From the IMG/VR virus record IMGVR_UViG_3300035703_000094, positions 1 to 62,646 of that record: 62,646 bases of DNA, one strand, 5' to 3'. Positions within the stretch are counted from its first letter, which is position 1, and the number at the start of each line of letters is the position of its first letter. This document shows, piece after piece, positions 4,468-51,525 of this stretch. Position numbers and translations under genes: made by a program. Below the pieces are notes generated by a model. That model was not told where the DNA came from. It did no database searches and saw nothing but the letters and a program-made list of their open reading frames with translations. This stretch comes from a virus.

Positions 4468-4783
4468 GAAGCAATTTAGTCACATTGTGCAGGCCGAACT
4501 GCGACTGACCTATGCCGTCCATTACAAAGGCAAAGAATACTTGGCGGAGATTGACCTGACCCGTTGGAAGATTACGACACGCCACCAACCGGAGATTGGC
4601 TTTTTTTGCTGGCTCTTTGGCCCGTTTAAGGTTGCCAAGATGGACCGCGCAGTCTACGATGCTTTCCTTGACCAAAAGATTGAAAAGATTTTTGGCAATA
4701 TCGGAGAGGCTCTGGATGACAGAATCGAAAAGATGGACCGAGTTGCACCGCAGGATGTGCCACCAGCAGACAAGTTGAACTGA
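4430..4783 (+). CDS. Hypothetical protein, 117 aa
   Basis: This protein is not recognised. It starts at 4430, inside the last codons of the polymerase gene, after AAAAGGAGCAGCCA, a strong ribosome-binding site. The protein has a basic N-terminus, a tryptophan- and phenylalanine-rich centre (IGFFCWLFGPF at about residues 56-66) and a charged C-terminal helix. The central aromatic stretch is too short for a clear membrane span. Its place between polymerase and RuvC-like nuclease suggests a replication accessory role, which is inference from context only. Confidence 0.75.
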   Translation: MSSTIGGKISKSEKQFSHIVQAELRLTYAVHYKGKEYLAEIDLTRWKITTRHQPEIGFFCWLFGPFKVAKMDRAVYDAFLDQKIEKIFGNIGEALDDRIEKMDRVAPQDVPPADKLN

Positions 4784-4791
4784 GGTGCAGT

Positions 4792-5340
4792 GTGCCAAGG
4801 AAGGACCGTAAGAGTAAGTTCTCCATCGAGGCAAAGCGGCTGGCTACTTCCATACGTGAGGGCCGGGTACTTTGTATCGACCCTGCCTCTGGCGGTAGCC
4901 TTCCTGGGTATGCGCTGTTCGAGAAGTCTGCTTGGATTGAGTCGGGCGAGATTCAGTTGAGCAAACGGAAACAGATGCCACATCACCGCTACAGGCAGAT
5001 ACTCTTTGAACTACAAAACAATCCAGACCTTTTTGCAAACATTGATGTGCTGTGCATAGAATTCATTCCGCCCTTCATGTCTGGCTTTGGTGGCGGAGGA
5101 TTCCGTACTCAGGGTGTGGTTAATCTGCACCGCTCGGTCGGTCTATTCATGGCGGGAATAGAATCGAAAAGTCTTATTGAAATACCCAGCACGACGTGGC
5201 ATGCTTGGGTACGCGAACACGTCAAAAACTACGAGAAGTCGGACATGAAAGATGCCACCGTCATGGGACTCACCTTGTTCCACCATGCCGGACAGAAGCT
5301 GCTGAATGAGAGCGAGGTACTTGAAATTGTTGGAGGGTAA
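4792..5340 (+). CDS. RuvC-like Holliday junction resolvase
   Basis: A 182-residue protein with the RNase H-fold layout of RuvC-type resolvases. The first catalytic Asp is in CIDPASGG (D30), Glu90 is in LCIEFIPPF, and two C-terminal acidic residues are D151 and D154 in KSDMKDA. The family resolves four-way or branched DNA, and phages use it to debranch DNA before packaging or during recombination. It starts with GTG at 4792 after GAGGTG. The spacing to the following helicase gene is three bases, so the two are co-translated. No basic signal sequence or fusion is seen. Confidence 0.82.
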   Translation: MPRKDRKSKFSIEAKRLATSIREGRVLCIDPASGGSLPGYALFEKSAWIESGEIQLSKRKQMPHHRYRQILFELQNNPDLFANIDVLCIEFIPPFMSGFGGGGFRTQGVVNLHRSVGLFMAGIESKSLIEIPSTTWHAWVREHVKNYEKSDMKDATVMGLTLFHHAGQKLLNESEVLEIVGG

Positions 5341-5343
5341 CAC

Positions 5344-6798
5344 ATGCGTATTCTTGAAGTATTTAGAGGAACCCCCAGAGATTGCCAGACGCAGGCTCTC
5401 CGAGAAATAGAATCCTCTTGGGACGAGGCCGACATCTTTGTCCTCTCTGCGCCTACTGCAGCAGGCAAGACGAAGATGATGACCACCATTGCACGTTGGG
5501 CTAACCAGCAATACAAAATGCAGGCCACCATACTCGTACCTAACAACGTGCTGCTCGACCAAGTGGTAGACACCGAAAAGATTTTTTCGCTACGTGGCAT
5601 GGACCACTACAAGTGCGAGGCCGGGCAACGCGAGGAACCAATGAGTTGTGCTGAGCGTAAGAGAATAATGGGAGAGACCTGTGGAAATTGCGTTTACCGA
5701 CAAAGGGTTCGGCAAGTCCACAAGGTCCCATATCGGGTAGCTAATTATTACACCTACTTGGCCCATCGACTCTACTCCCCTGTCGTGTTGGTCGATGAAG
5801 CGCATCTGCTCGTGAACATGGCCCGGGAATTGGCAGCCCGGCATATCTGGGTGGATGACATACTCCTGAAGAACGGTGACCAAGTCAGACTACCCCTGTC
5901 AGTCGATACCTACGAGAAGCTGCTCAACTGGATTTCAGGAAAAGAGTTCCGTAGCAAGGCGTGGCAGCAGCTGAGAGAGGAGCTGGCTACCGGACGTATG
6001 CGCTACCTCGTCGAACGCCGTGACAAGCCTTATAGGGGCCGATTCAGGGATTGCCTATCTTTGCTCCCTCTGGACACGTCTCACGAGGAAAAGGTCAGCG
6101 TTCTATGGCCTACCAAGAAGGTCAAGAAGGTGTTCCTGTTCAGCGGTACTATTAGCCGGCTGGAAGTGGAGCAGCTTGCACTTGCAGGCAAGCGTGTAAA
6201 GTTCATCACTGTACAAAGTCCCATCGAGGCGAAGCGTAGGCCCATCATCGCGGATGCTGCTTACAACATGACCTTCCCGGTAGCAGACAAGGAACTGGAC
6301 AGGATGGCTGAGCACATCACTACCATAGCCAACCGCAATGCACGCACCAAGATGCTCGTCCATATTCCCTATGCCCTGTCTACCCGCCTGATGCCCCTGC
6401 TTCAGGAGAGGCTAGGTGAGCGTGTAATAGGACACGCTAGGGAAAACAAACAGGAAGTGGTTGACTACTTCAAGGCTGCAGAAGAACCACTCGTGCTACT
6501 TGGTTCCGGCCTCTACGAGGGGCTGGACCTCTACGGGGATGATTACCAAGTTCAGGTTATCTGCAAGGTACCCTGGCCATTCTTAGGTGAGCCCGCGTGG
6601 AAGTTCATTGCCGACACGTTTCCAGAACGCTACGCATGGCAGGCCATACAGCAAGTCGTGCAGGCGGCAGGTCGTATCTGTCGTGGCCCGGATGACTATG
6701 GAGAAACATTTATTCTTGACCGGAGTTTTCGCAGGCTGTACACTCAGCACGAATCTCTATTCCCTAAATACTTTACCGATGCAGTGAGTTTCACATGA
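5344..6798 (+). CDS. DinG/XPD-like superfamily 2 helicase with four-cysteine cluster
   Basis: An ATP-dependent helicase of 484 residues. The Walker A motif is SAPTAAGKT (35-43), the DEAH box is VDEAH (D151-H154) and the motif VI region is QAAGRICRG (R444 and R447). Between Walker A and DEAH lie C91, C102, C113 and C116, which is the position of the iron-sulphur cluster in DinG and XPD helicases. This suggests the same 5'-3' DNA helicase class. It sits between a RuvC-like nuclease and a PD-(D/E)XK nuclease, consistent with recombination or fork processing. As no DnaB-type helicase is present, it may also serve replication (inference). Confidence 0.85.
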   Translation: MRILEVFRGTPRDCQTQALREIESSWDEADIFVLSAPTAAGKTKMMTTIARWANQQYKMQATILVPNNVLLDQVVDTEKIFSLRGMDHYKCEAGQREEPMSCAERKRIMGETCGNCVYRQRVRQVHKVPYRVANYYTYLAHRLYSPVVLVDEAHLLVNMARELAARHIWVDDILLKNGDQVRLPLSVDTYEKLLNWISGKEFRSKAWQQLREELATGRMRYLVERRDKPYRGRFRDCLSLLPLDTSHEEKVSVLWPTKKVKKVFLFSGTISRLEVEQLALAGKRVKFITVQSPIEAKRRPIIADAAYNMTFPVADKELDRMAEHITTIANRNARTKMLVHIPYALSTRLMPLLQERLGERVIGHARENKQEVVDYFKAAEEPLVLLGSGLYEGLDLYGDDYQVQVICKVPWPFLGEPAWKFIADTFPERYAWQAIQQVVQAAGRICRGPDDYGETFILDRSFRRLYTQHESLFPKYFTDAVSFT

Positions 6799-42185: not shown

Positions 42186-44033
42186 TTAAAGAATAGAGCA
42201 CTTGTCTCCTTCGCATCCAGAAGTTTGTGCGCGAAGGTCATGTTTCTGCTCATACTGTACTTCACTTAGGTCCAGTTCGCAACTCAATACTTTGCCAAGC
42301 AATTCTTCGTAACGCTCCTTGCTGATAGCTTCGTAAGGTGCCTGAACGTAGGTGTTCTCATCGAGCGGAAGTAAAGAGATACCTGCGTATGAGTCGCGGT
42401 TATTCCACATCCATACGTCCAAATCCTTCTGGTCTTGCTCACCACGATAGTAACAGGTTAAGGACACATTGTGCATATTAGGTCCACGGTCATGCCCTGG
42501 TTTAATCCAGTTTTCCTGAATATATTTAGCACGTTCAAGCTGCTCAATACATGATTCTTTACTGGCGACGATACCTGGCATTTGAATAGGTAAAGCGATG
42601 CAATTGAGACTTGGTTGAAATTCGTCCGTTTCGACTAATTCGCTGGGCAGTGAATTTGAAAGATAGACTGCGAGTGGGTCATCCTTGGCAATACGCACGC
42701 GACGCAGGTAATAAGGCGCGTAGGCACCGTGAATGCCTGCGGTGGTACCCAACACTGTCGAGGTAGTTCCAGAGGGCTTGGTAGTCGTAATACGGGCTGC
42801 GTGATTGATGCCTAGTTCGTGAGCCAATTCTTTGTTCCACAGACGAGTCATGTCAGCAATCTCTGCAAGGTCCCATCTTTTGAGATTCTCCCAGTTCTGT
42901 GCCTGTCCTGTGATGGATACACCGAGCAAAGCATCTTGTTCTGCAATCTGTTTCCAGCGTGGTTTGACGTAGTTGAAGTTGGTCAGAGCTGCCTGGAAGG
43001 TACCAAGCACAGTGGCATAATAAGCGGCCTGAGCAAAGTCAAATTCATTCTCGCAGACGGCTGCATTGATTTCTGTCAGGTTGCAAAGTCCCTGAGATTG
43101 CAGACTAATCTCAGCGCAAGGGTTGGTTCCGTAGTCTGGGTCATTGGTCCAGAAGACTCCTGGCTCTCCTGCCTTGGATTCGAGGCATGCACGCAGTGTA
43201 TCTCTGAAGTGTATGTAGTTTGACTTGCCGCGAATAAGAACTGCTGAGTTATTTGCGCGAGCACGTTGTGGAGCGCGTTGCCACCATGCCCCGCTCTTGG
43301 AAAGAAGCATCTCCTCCTCATCTTGGTCAAAGAGGGAAATAAGAGCTGCGCGACGTACACCGCCTACAACGACTACGTCTGCAATGTAGCAGACCACATC
43401 GTGGACTTCGATGGGGCGGAGTTTACGTCCCTCTGCACCGCGAAGGATGCGGCGAATATTCTCGTGCGCAGTACGCAGTGACTCAGGACCGCTGGCTGTA
43501 CCTCCGGTAGAGAGGCGGGTACCGGCTGCACGAATCTGCGAGTAGTCAAATTTAATATTTGGATTTTCCAGCAGAACTTGTACTGACTCAGCCCAAGCCT
43601 CACGCGAGTCGCCTACTAGAGCGAAGGCAAGTTCCTCGGACTCCTGCTTTGCGATTGTAGGAAGTTGACTAATATGAGAGCGTTGCACAGAGAAGCCAAC
43701 ACCCGTACCATTCATAAGAATGTAAAAAATATCCGAAATGTCTTTAAAGTCTTTTATAGCGACAAAAGAACAATTGTAAGCACGCATATTTTCACGGGAA
43801 AGTCCCTCACCTGCAAATTGCAGCATACGCATACTGGGTACAATCATTCGGCTTTTTACGTAGGAACAAGCACGGCCAATAAGGTCGTGATGTTGTGAAG
43901 AAAACTGGTCAATCATGAATTGCTCGTAGCGTTCAACAACTTGATTCCAGCTTTCTTTTTTTCCTGAAGGGAGAACTTGGCTGTAGGTTCTGTAGAAGGC
44001 CAAGTCGGAAAGAATCTGTGCGGTCCTTTGCAT
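42186..44033 (-). CDS. nrdJ: Adenosylcobalamin-dependent (class II) ribonucleotide reductase
   Basis: A 615-residue enzyme that reduces ribonucleotides to deoxyribonucleotides, using vitamin B12 to start the radical and no oxygen. The radical-cysteine motif TNPCAEISLQ gives N304, C306 and E308. The other half of the active-site pair is C88 (AYNCSF), and the C-terminal redox pair is C607 and C612 (SGCEGDKCSIL). It aligns best with monomeric RTPR-type enzymes (Lactobacillus-like, about 740 residues) but is shorter. The host must make or import cobalamin. It has its own promoter and operator-like repeat upstream and is embedded among structural genes. Confidence 0.93.
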   Translation of the reverse strand: MQRTAQILSDLAFYRTYSQVLPSGKKESWNQVVERYEQFMIDQFSSQHHDLIGRACSYVKSRMIVPSMRMLQFAGEGLSRENMRAYNCSFVAIKDFKDISDIFYILMNGTGVGFSVQRSHISQLPTIAKQESEELAFALVGDSREAWAESVQVLLENPNIKFDYSQIRAAGTRLSTGGTASGPESLRTAHENIRRILRGAEGRKLRPIEVHDVVCYIADVVVVGGVRRAALISLFDQDEEEMLLSKSGAWWQRAPQRARANNSAVLIRGKSNYIHFRDTLRACLESKAGEPGVFWTNDPDYGTNPCAEISLQSQGLCNLTEINAAVCENEFDFAQAAYYATVLGTFQAALTNFNYVKPRWKQIAEQDALLGVSITGQAQNWENLKRWDLAEIADMTRLWNKELAHELGINHAARITTTKPSGTTSTVLGTTAGIHGAYAPYYLRRVRIAKDDPLAVYLSNSLPSELVETDEFQPSLNCIALPIQMPGIVASKESCIEQLERAKYIQENWIKPGHDRGPNMHNVSLTCYYRGEQDQKDLDVWMWNNRDSYAGISLLPLDENTYVQAPYEAISKERYEELLGKVLSCELDLSEVQYEQKHDLRAQTSGCEGDKCSIL

Positions 44034-44076
44034 GGGTATCCTCCGTCCAACTCCGTGAAATCAGAGTGGTTTTAGG

Positions 44077-44105
44077 AGTATATCACCTGCTGACCAGGTG
44101 GTCAA
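44077..44105 (-). promoter_or_regulatory. Promoter of nrdJ with operator-like repeat in the spacer
   Basis: On the minus strand TTGACC (44105-44100), 17 bases, then TATACT (44082-44077) forms a sigma70-type promoter with five of six matches in each box. The 17-base spacer is filled exactly by the inverted repeat CACCTG-N5-CAGGTG (44084-44100). A protein bound there would block RNA polymerase. The expected start of transcription is near 44070, leaving a leader of about 37 bases before the ATG, with GGAGG as ribosome-binding site. Confidence 0.8.
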
Positions 44106-44116
44106 GTCCGCTTTCT

Positions 44117-44149
44117 GAAAAAAGAAAAAGCCCTGCATTTCTGCAGGGC
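44117..44149 (-). terminator. Rho-independent terminator upstream of the nrdJ promoter
   Basis: On the minus strand GCCCTGCA-GAAA-TGCAGGGC is followed by TTTTTCTTTTTTC. The eight-pair stem with a GAAA loop and long T-run is very strong. It lies 22 bases after the stop of the preceding gene and 12 bases before the -35 box, so nrdJ is transcriptionally separate from the surface-protein operon. Confidence 0.93.
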
Positions 44150-50154: not shown

Positions 50155-50164
50155 ATTTGGCGCG

Positions 50165-50226
50165 GCGGGGGATGGGCGTCGGGGGAACGTCGTGCAGCGG
50201 GGGATGGGCGCAGCGGGGGATGGGTG
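50165..50226. repeat. G-rich tandem repeats in the control region
   Basis: GCGGGGGATGGGCG occurs at 50165-50178 and 50197-50210, and GCGGGGGATGGGTG at 50213-50226. A degenerate copy (TCGGGGGAACG) at 50179-50189 lies between them. The nine-base core GCGGGGGAT also occurs at 49251-49259, in the same orientation, near the terminase small subunit gene. Candidate roles are terminase recognition, a replication origin, or a regulator site. The G runs could also form a quadruplex. Confidence 0.75.
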
Positions 50227-50339
50227 GCTGCAGCTGCGGAGAGGTGACGCGAGTGCTACTCGTGAGGCTTCAACTTGCCGAGATTGCTGGCTTTTCCAAC
50301 TTTCCGTTAAAGTATTTTTTGCCGTTTGCCGTAAAGAAG

Positions 50340-50656
50340 GTGTCGGGTCGCTCAGCTTGACTCCTTGTGTCGGACGATACACGGTCAACGGGCTTCCCTA
50401 CCGCTCCCCGTGCTGCGGCACTACGGAGACGCGCCTTGCGGAGCATGTAGTCCTCGGACAGTGCCTACCGTGTACGAATCGGCTAACTACCGACGGCGAG
50501 CGAAAGCAGTTAGGAATCACTGCGTGTATCCGAGGATACACAGACGTGTGAACGAAGCTGTGATTAGCAACAAGAACTCTGGAGACCGCCTCGCGTGTTC
50601 GTGTCGAGATGATACCAAACACAAGAGAGACCGCCCAGAGGTGCAGGATGCACGAA
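50340..50656 (+). other. Gene-free structured leader region
   Basis: The stretch 50021-50719 has no convincing gene. Its second half is dense in inverted repeats that would form hairpins in a plus-strand RNA: CTAACT/AGTTAG (50483-50488 with 50508-50513), the near-perfect GTGTATCC-GA-GGATACAC (50524-50541) and GTGCA-gga-TGCAC (50641-50653), which stands four bases before the hammerhead ribozyme. The density suggests a long structured leader or non-coding RNA. The 50524-50541 repeat could also be a protein-binding operator. No family was recognised. Confidence 0.55.
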
Positions 50657-50711
50657 CCCTATACACGTCTGCTTCGACGTGCTGACGAGTCCCAGAAAGG
50701 ACGAAATAGGG
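50657..50711 (+). ncRNA. Type III hammerhead ribozyme
   Basis: A complete self-cleaving RNA motif. Stem III is CCCUAU (50657-50662) with AUAGGG (50706-50711). Next come A50663 as the cleavage-site residue and stem I, CACGUC (50664-50669) with GACGUG (50676-50681), loop UGCUUC. Then the core CUGACGA (50682-50688) and stem II, GUCC (50689-50692) with GGAC (50699-50702), loop CAGAAA. The core GAA (50703-50705) follows, and A50706 pairs with U50662. Every conserved core base of the hammerhead is present. Cleavage is expected after A50663. Both ends are in stem III, which defines type III. The 3' strand of stem III merges with the GGGAG ribosome-binding site of the next gene. Confidence 0.93.
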
Positions 50712-50719
50712 AGTATCTT

Positions 50720-50833
50720 ATGTTTTTCTTCACACCCTTGGAATTATTTATAATTCTCGTTGTTGGCTTTGCCTTTCTCACGCTGTCCGACATTGTAATC
50801 AATGTCGTGAAGGATGTCCTCTCAAAAGAGTGA
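50720..50833 (+). CDS. Very small membrane protein, 37 aa, behind the ribozyme
   Basis: The protein starts MFFFTPLELFIILVVGFAFL, a single membrane helix, and ends with DIVINVVKDVLSKE. ATG at 50720 has GGGAG at 50709-50713, and this Shine-Dalgarno sequence includes the last bases of the hammerhead ribozyme. It is the first plus-strand gene of the early arm. A longer in-frame start at 50609 would translate through the ribozyme and is rejected. Possible roles are a holin-like or host-membrane-acting peptide. Confidence 0.75.
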   Translation: MFFFTPLELFIILVVGFAFLTLSDIVINVVKDVLSKE

Positions 50834-50841
50834 GGTGACCT

Positions 50842-51525
50842 ATGCCTACGTTGCTTGCACAAAACAGCAAGATTGCCAAGAGCGCAACTGCTGAATACGT
50901 TGTATTCAACTTCGGGATACCTGCATGGAAGTCCAAGACTGGCATGATTACATGCCCTGCGGCTGGCATCTGCGGAAAACAAGGCGGATGCTACGCATTG
51001 CAGGGGCCGTATCGGTTCAGCAATGTGGCCAGCGTGTACGAGTGGAGATTGACGCAAGCCGAGACAGAAACATTCCCGATTCTGATGCAATCAGAATTAG
51101 ACGAGGCAAAACGCAAGGCTACCAAACGTGGCCGCAAGGTTGTCATCCGCATACACGATAGCGGTGACTTCTATTCGGTTCCTTACTTGCGGAAATGGTT
51201 GGCAATTATTGTAGCCAACGAAGATGTTTACTTCTATGCCTACACGAAACAAGTTCGCTTGTTCAGTAAGTTACTGGACAAGTTACCTAGTAACTTCCGT
51301 GTCATCTTCTCCGAGGGTGGCATCTTCGATGACGAGATTGACACAGCTACTCAATTCCACAGTCGAGTCTTCCCTTCTAGGGAAGCATTGCTTGCCGCTG
51401 GCTATGCTGACGCAAGCGAGAACGATTTGGTGGCAGGCATGGGCGACAATATCCGCATCGGCCTTATCTATCACGGTGCTGACAGCAAGCAATGGACAAC
51501 TGACGAACAGGAGAAAGTGTCATGA
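50842..51525 (+). CDS. GP88-family protein
   Basis: A 227-residue protein resembling the mycobacteriophage gene 88 family. It has KTGMITCPAAGICGKQGGCY near the N-terminus (C38, C44, C50), then a charged central region with VVIRIHDSGDFYSVPYLRKW and VYFYAYTKQVRLF. The three clustered cysteines suggest a metal or Fe-S site, and the later parts have the strand/helix alternation of a barrel. The biochemical function of the family is not established. The start follows GAGGTGACCT, and its stop overlaps the next start. Confidence 0.8.
   Translation: MPTLLAQNSKIAKSATAEYVVFNFGIPAWKSKTGMITCPAAGICGKQGGCYALQGPYRFSNVASVYEWRLTQAETETFPILMQSELDEAKRKATKRGRKVVIRIHDSGDFYSVPYLRKWLAIIVANEDVYFYAYTKQVRLFSKLLDKLPSNFRVIFSEGGIFDDEIDTATQFHSRVFPSREALLAAGYADASENDLVAGMGDNIRIGLIYHGADSKQWTTDEQEKVS

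Follow-up and report, generated by a model that had tools for sequence, protein, structure and literature searches.

The window analysed here, the whole 62,646-nucleotide stretch of the IMG/VR virus record IMGVR_UViG_3300035703_000094, carries a complete type III hammerhead ribozyme at positions 50657–50711 (+ strand), and one strand of it runs into the Shine-Dalgarno (SD) sequence of the gene that follows. Judged by sequence, the element belongs to the hammerhead class (Rfam clan CL00010) with type III topology, and self-cleavage is predicted. Since the region upstream appears to be structured and noncoding, the ribozyme marks the exact boundary of a structured noncoding RNA with an mRNA.

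Architecture of the Ribozyme and Its Genomic Setting

All core residues and three stems are present. Stem III pairs CCCUAU (50657–50662), which faces the SD region, with AUAGGG (50706–50711), and the cleavable base is A50663, with the predicted cut between A50663 and C50664. Stem I is a hairpin of CACGUC (50664–50669) and GACGUG (50676–50681) with the loop UGCUUC. The catalytic core CUGACGA (50682–50688), stem II (GUCC, 50689–50692, and GGAC, 50699–50702, with the loop CAGAAA) and the GAA of the core (50703–50705) together span 50682–50705. The U50662–A50706 pair corresponds to the A15.1–U16.1 pair of the class, and the cleavage base is not a G. In the predicted fold three helices surround the core, with stems I and II closed and stem III open, and the minimum-free-energy fold of 50650–50740 was exactly the hammerhead structure. 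The stability of this segment was not above that of shuffled sequences (z −0.78). The window contains 7 copies of the bare CTGANGA...GAAA pattern, where 5 would be expected by chance, so the core pattern alone means little.

The 3′ strand of stem III continues into the SD sequence GGGAG (50709–50713; combined feature 50706–50713, + strand), which lies 6 nt before the ATG at 50720. The overlap that had been claimed in the preliminary description is real, but only GGG (50709–50711) of the five SD bases is inside stem III, and A50712 and G50713 are outside. Three of the five bases are thus predicted to be paired in the ribozyme stem before cleavage. The gene at 50720–50833 (+) encodes a predicted small membrane protein of 37 amino acids, and it is followed by a gene of the GP88 family at 50842–51525 (+; Pfam PF17338, E 1.8e-35). 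The placement of the ribozyme before the first gene of a rightward cluster of small genes was borne out. A strict scan of the + strand for sigma-70 promoters passed no candidate. Between the divergent gene clusters, G-rich imperfect repeats (GCGGGGGATGGGCG) occupy 50160–50225. Elsewhere in the window, a ribonucleotide reductase gene (42186–44033; PHROG 367, E 2e-126) lies beside the terminase gene.

Conservation in Relatives and Covariance-Model Evidence

The same region was found on two IMG/VR contigs, L122 (identical with L002) and L123. The GP88 gene of L122 is 95% identical to that of the window, and the proteins shared with L123 are 31–91% identical. Searches for further relatives of the leader, by pattern or by protein, returned only these two and a near-identical fragment (L125) without the leader. 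No named phage was related to the window by DNA, and the matches of TerL and the polymerase to named phages were distant. L122 has a different repeat placed similarly to that at 50160–50225 of the window.

A hammerhead occupies the same position in both relatives, and its CUGANGA and GAA have not changed. In the three-relative alignment, seven base pairs were compensated, and these fell in all three stems: five of the six pairs of stem I differ between relatives, each on both sides, while stems II and III have one two-sided change each. Stem III reads CCCTAT/ATAGGG in the window, CCTTAT/ATAAGG in L122 (a C-G to U-A change) and CCCAT/ATGGG in L123. Compensated stems around a fixed core are the signature of selection for the fold. 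The loops are also alike (UGCUUC, UACUUC and UUCUUG in stem I; CAGAAA and CAGACA in stem II), which is only suggestive of the contact between loops I and II known from the hammerhead class. From the 3′ strand of stem III through the SD to the start codon, the RNA reads AUAGGGAG-6-AUG in the window, AUAAGGGG-5-AUG in L122 and AUGGGGG-5-AUG in L123; in DNA letters the overlap is ATAAGGGG in L122 and ATGGGGG in L123, each 5 nt before the ATG. The gene after the ribozyme is a short hydrophobic ORF in all three; that of L122 encodes a homologue of the 37-aa protein (52% identical over 33 residues), and that of L123 has the corresponding position.

The search with Rfam hammerhead covariance models that had been proposed as a check gave a divided outcome. 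RF00008 (Hammerhead_3) matched the window hammerhead with 24.0 bits (E 2.6e-4 for the record and 0.014 over 811 bases), below its gathering cut-off of 48.5 bits, and the ribozyme is therefore not filed under RF00008 as curated. The relatives, the tested type III phage hammerheads with a fused SD and Pseudomonas phage PaP3 likewise scored below the cut-off, and no Rfam family matched anywhere in the window at its gathering score. An independent model, R1, was built from eight hammerheads of other viral contigs, with the window and its relatives left out; it gave 47 bits and an E of 1.5e-11, as the sole match in the record. By the same model the record has no second hammerhead, which would permit a circular RNA. 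Weak Rfam matches to MIR2629 and rli117 were judged to be chance, and a search with a longer hammerhead pattern gave no matches.

An inactive sequence that resembles a hammerhead by chance or after decay would fit the sub-threshold Rfam score, the commonness of bare core patterns and the unexceptional fold energy. The E of the independent model, together with the invariant core and compensatory evolution in the relatives, makes this reading extremely improbable. The complete type III hammerhead of the preliminary description is thus upheld by the core, the stems, the fold, the independent model and the compensated relatives.

A Conserved Structured Leader

The ribozyme is preceded by a conserved noncoding leader RNA of about 330 nt (50328–50656, +), the presumed 5′ cleavage product, which was aligned with L122:11936–12233 and L123:7784–8113 (−). 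This structured leader is the point that the preliminary description overlooked. The consensus fold of the alignment reached −86.9, compared with −67.2 (sd 4.8) in shuffled columns, and none of 200 shuffles was as low. Moreover, 18 two-sided compensatory pairs were counted against 6.7 (sd 2.0) in shuffles and 0–2 when the partners were slid. This covariation is strong evidence that a structure exists and weak evidence for its details, because only three sequences were available and the structure was derived from the same three. A coding function was rejected, as frame-breaking indels of 29 and 2 nt separate the relatives. The leader matched no Rfam family, riboswitch families included. A CsrA-type sponge of GGA motifs was dropped, as about eight GGA in 330 nt, counted by eye, is close to chance. 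Within the leader, one internal loop has AGACCGCC on each of its two sides, and the hairpin adjoining the ribozyme, GUGCA-GGA-UGCAC, is invariant.

An Equivalent Arrangement in PaP3-Like Phages

The R1 model detected a hammerhead in Pseudomonas phage PaP3 at 54 bits, which a regular-expression scan had overlooked. A single nucleotide separates it from the following start codon, that of ORF.71, the head gene of a leftward cluster, and 71 Pseudomonas phage records contain the region. Five diverged relatives (L396–L400) have a type III hammerhead at 51–58 bits in which stems I and III covary. PaP3 was listed among active hammerheads and called intergenic by Perreault et al. (2011, PMC3088659), which may refer to either of two sites in PaP3. 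A second, weaker hammerhead-like match (17.8–19.6 bits) was present in all PaP3-like phages examined; in L393 it lies at 44072–44123 (−), and in L396–L400 it follows the first hammerhead by about 1.3 kb.

In two PaP3-like records, sigma-70-type promoters are annotated about 550 nt upstream of the hammerhead, and the intervening noncoding leader of about 550 nt (545–1088 in L396, with equivalents in L397–L400) is nearly invariant over much of its length. It has no Rfam family and is a candidate for a new phage RNA family. The order in these phages (Bruynoghevirus) is promoter, leader, hammerhead and first early gene; as in the window, a long conserved noncoding leader ends in a type III hammerhead that merges with the translation start of the first early gene. 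They differ from the window in the way of fusion: in L396–L400 the SD, AAGGA, forms one strand of stem II, and stem III shares bases with the start codon (ACG-AUG) or, in PaP3, abuts it. The leader region of the window had no PaP3-like match by DNA.

Recurrence of the Fusion Among Viral Hammerheads

Pattern searches showed that hammerheads are very common in viral contigs. Among sampled matches, 98 of 134 cores folded as type I and 30 of 134 as type III. An ATG-initiated ORF of at least 40 codons began within 60 nt of 75% of phage hammerheads, compared with 33% of random positions, and the median gap between hammerhead and ORF was 23–25 nt. Most of the sampled type III hammerheads of phages do not include the SD, and masking it is therefore not a general role of phage hammerheads.

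A directed search then required AGGAG immediately behind the core of a type III hammerhead, and bacterial and archaeal genomes served as a chance control. Among the matches listed, 14 of 146 viral ones were well-formed type III ribozymes and none of 119 control ones. In 13 of these 14, stem III takes in all or part of the SD, and an ATG comes 5–8 nt after the SD. They represent about six lineages (L137/L158/L162/L164/L173, L146, L156, L235/L254, L136/L175 and L144/L160), and in the L137, L156, L146 and L235 lineages the whole of AGGAG is predicted to lie within stem III. Since the search demanded AGGAG, some rows are near-identical copies and both scans cover only the matches listed, the predicted structures show recurrence of the arrangement and not its frequency. 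The overlap of stem III and SD is accordingly conserved in two relatives and recurrent in unrelated phages, and in this respect the preliminary description is supported. In L136, a different phage, the order is the same: the ribozyme follows a noncoding stretch of a few hundred bases and precedes a membrane ORF of 27 aa. No named phage matched any of the SD-fused loci by DNA at the ribozyme.

Other arrangements were also seen. In L137 (4451–5624), a type III hammerhead with the SD in stem III is followed by type II ribozymes at 4777–4843, 5088–5149 and 5560–5624, before successive genes. L146 (220–555) has one type II hammerhead after the type III, again with successive hammerheads before successive genes. 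In L106, L017, L053 and L101, type III hammerheads end at or overlap the start codon, and the GGAC strand of stem II is the only apparent SD.

SD Accessibility and Proposed Mechanism

The computed cost of opening the SD of the window fell from 6.1 to 3.3 kcal/mol on cleavage, whereas its mean unpaired probability rose only from 0.23 to 0.28. The gain in access is modest because the cleavage product can pair the SD again; the two measures speak only modestly for a release of the SD by cleavage, as first proposed. The six base pairs of stem III amount to −6.5 kcal/mol, and on this calculation the two pieces should part easily, in agreement with the earlier argument that only six pairs would hold them together. 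In all cases of SD overlap for which it was computed, the opening cost was lower after cleavage; the change was barely perceptible in L123, L144 and L160. In lineages with a stem III of 8–11 bp it fell by 4–9 kcal/mol, from 6.3–11.6 to 1.0–2.5 kcal/mol (8.0 to 1.2 kcal/mol in L156). Such stems have −10 to −15 kcal/mol, and their fragments would therefore part slowly unaided.

We consider processing combined with SD release to be the best explanation, and a rather probable one. Transcription would pass through the leader from a promoter presumably located upstream of about 50328, and the hammerhead at the 3′ end of the leader, which is probably constitutive, would cut the first early transcript during its synthesis. 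The ribozyme would be complete only once the SD has left RNA polymerase, and the SD would thus be born paired in stem III. Cleavage after A50663 would yield a noncoding RNA of about 330 nt with a 2′,3′-cyclic phosphate end and an mRNA with a 5′-hydroxyl and a base-paired 5′ hairpin (stem I), which would be expected to resist 5′-end-dependent decay. The fragments, held by only 6 bp, would then part and the SD would become available, and translation would be tied to completed processing. The parts of this proposal are not equally secure. Transcript processing by the ribozyme is, from the sequence evidence, highly probable. Translational gating in the window phage is plausible, modestly supported by the computed access, and about evenly balanced between true and false.

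Alternative Explanations

The ribozyme might mainly trim the structured leader and release it as a noncoding RNA, or detach it from the mRNA, the overlap with the SD being an economy of space with no translational role. The strong conservation and covariation of the leader, the nearly invariant PaP3-like leader beside an equally placed ribozyme and the small gain in SD access in the window all favour this reading, and we give it only slightly less than an even chance. What it does not account for is the SD within stem III in several lineages with correct SD-ATG spacing, some of which pair the whole SD in 8–11 bp, beyond what catalysis should require. A further possibility, less probable than leader release and less likely than not, concerns mRNA stability: a 5′-hydroxyl and two 5′ hairpins would protect the early mRNA against RNase E-type decay and pyrophosphohydrolase. 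After cleavage of a type III hammerhead the mRNA would begin with stems I and II, stem I is paired from its first base, and phage hammerheads typically lie just before genes. Most sampled phage hammerheads are nevertheless type I, which leaves the core on the upstream fragment, and stability cannot therefore be the general reason.

The preliminary description had also spoken of a switch, for which nothing indicates regulated cleavage. Under such a model, cleavage, and with it the timing of early genes, would be controlled by a ligand that the leader binds or by a factor from the phage or its host. The conserved structured leader directly abuts the ribozyme, and engineered SD-masked ribozymes work in this way in E. 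coli (PMC5052635). Nevertheless, the Rfam search of the leader found no known aptamer or riboswitch family, which leaves room for an aptamer of a new type, no ligand or trigger for cleavage is indicated, the core and loops look like those of an ordinary hammerhead, and nothing connects the leader helices to the ribozyme stems; regulated switching is accordingly unlikely. The preferred reading and its rivals overlap, and their probabilities do not sum to one.

Relation to Known Systems and Implications

The claim that the arrangement is a new kind of control was too strong, since a hammerhead before an early gene is known from HF1/HF2 (PMC3088659) and SD masking by ribozymes has been engineered (PMC5052635). 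In the haloviruses HF1 and HF2, a polycistronic early transcript has a hammerhead variant 13 nt before its first ORF, and the 5′ end of this transcript was mapped to no more than 3 nt from the cut (2011, PMC3088659). That HHphage ribozyme differs from the window in belonging to an archaeal virus and in its variant core, whereas the window core is the consensus, and an overlap with the SD is undescribed for it. The phage and prophage hammerheads of Perreault et al. (2011, PMC3088659) are, like the window element, of the same class and next to genes, and the processing of long phage transcripts was suggested as their role. A word search of the paper found no mention of ribosome binding, Shine-Dalgarno or translation, and no structured leader is described in it.

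Engineered hammerhead and twister switches in E. coli resemble the window in having the SD in a ribozyme stem from which self-cleavage frees it, and the difference between active and inactive constructs ranges from 5-fold to about 100-fold (PMC5052635). They are synthetic and, in the switch versions, ligand-gated, whereas the window element is natural and shows no sign of a ligand. The natural ligand-dependent ribozymes named in the same paper also lie in 5′ leaders and affect expression of the downstream gene; unlike the window hammerhead they have other folds and depend on ligands, and glmS cleavage lowers expression. We found no report of a natural hammerhead overlapping an SD in a search of mainly open-access literature without preprints, which is weak evidence of absence, nor any report in open-access literature of natural hammerhead strands serving as a ribosome-binding site or of these leaders.

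From the sequences compared, the arrangement seems to be a natural device that has recurred, and not a curiosity. A broader proposal, which we put forward tentatively and at somewhat less than even confidence, is that phages have repeatedly evolved a natural ribozyme-gated ribosome-binding site after a conserved structured leader, in which strands of a type III hammerhead themselves make up the SD or the start region and by which one early transcript would divide itself into a functional noncoding RNA and an mRNA open to translation only once cut; the leaders of the window family and of the PaP3-like phages would then be two new families of hammerhead-matured RNAs. The recurrent fusion with the ribosome-binding site suggests a direct and testable function for phage hammerheads, a question that has been open since their discovery, and the SD-fused hammerhead would be the natural counterpart of a design from synthetic biology. 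Since ordinary laboratory hosts of the genus Pseudomonas support growth of the PaP3-like phages, the question of function could be answered quickly. The conserved leaders are candidates for new phage noncoding RNAs made early in infection.
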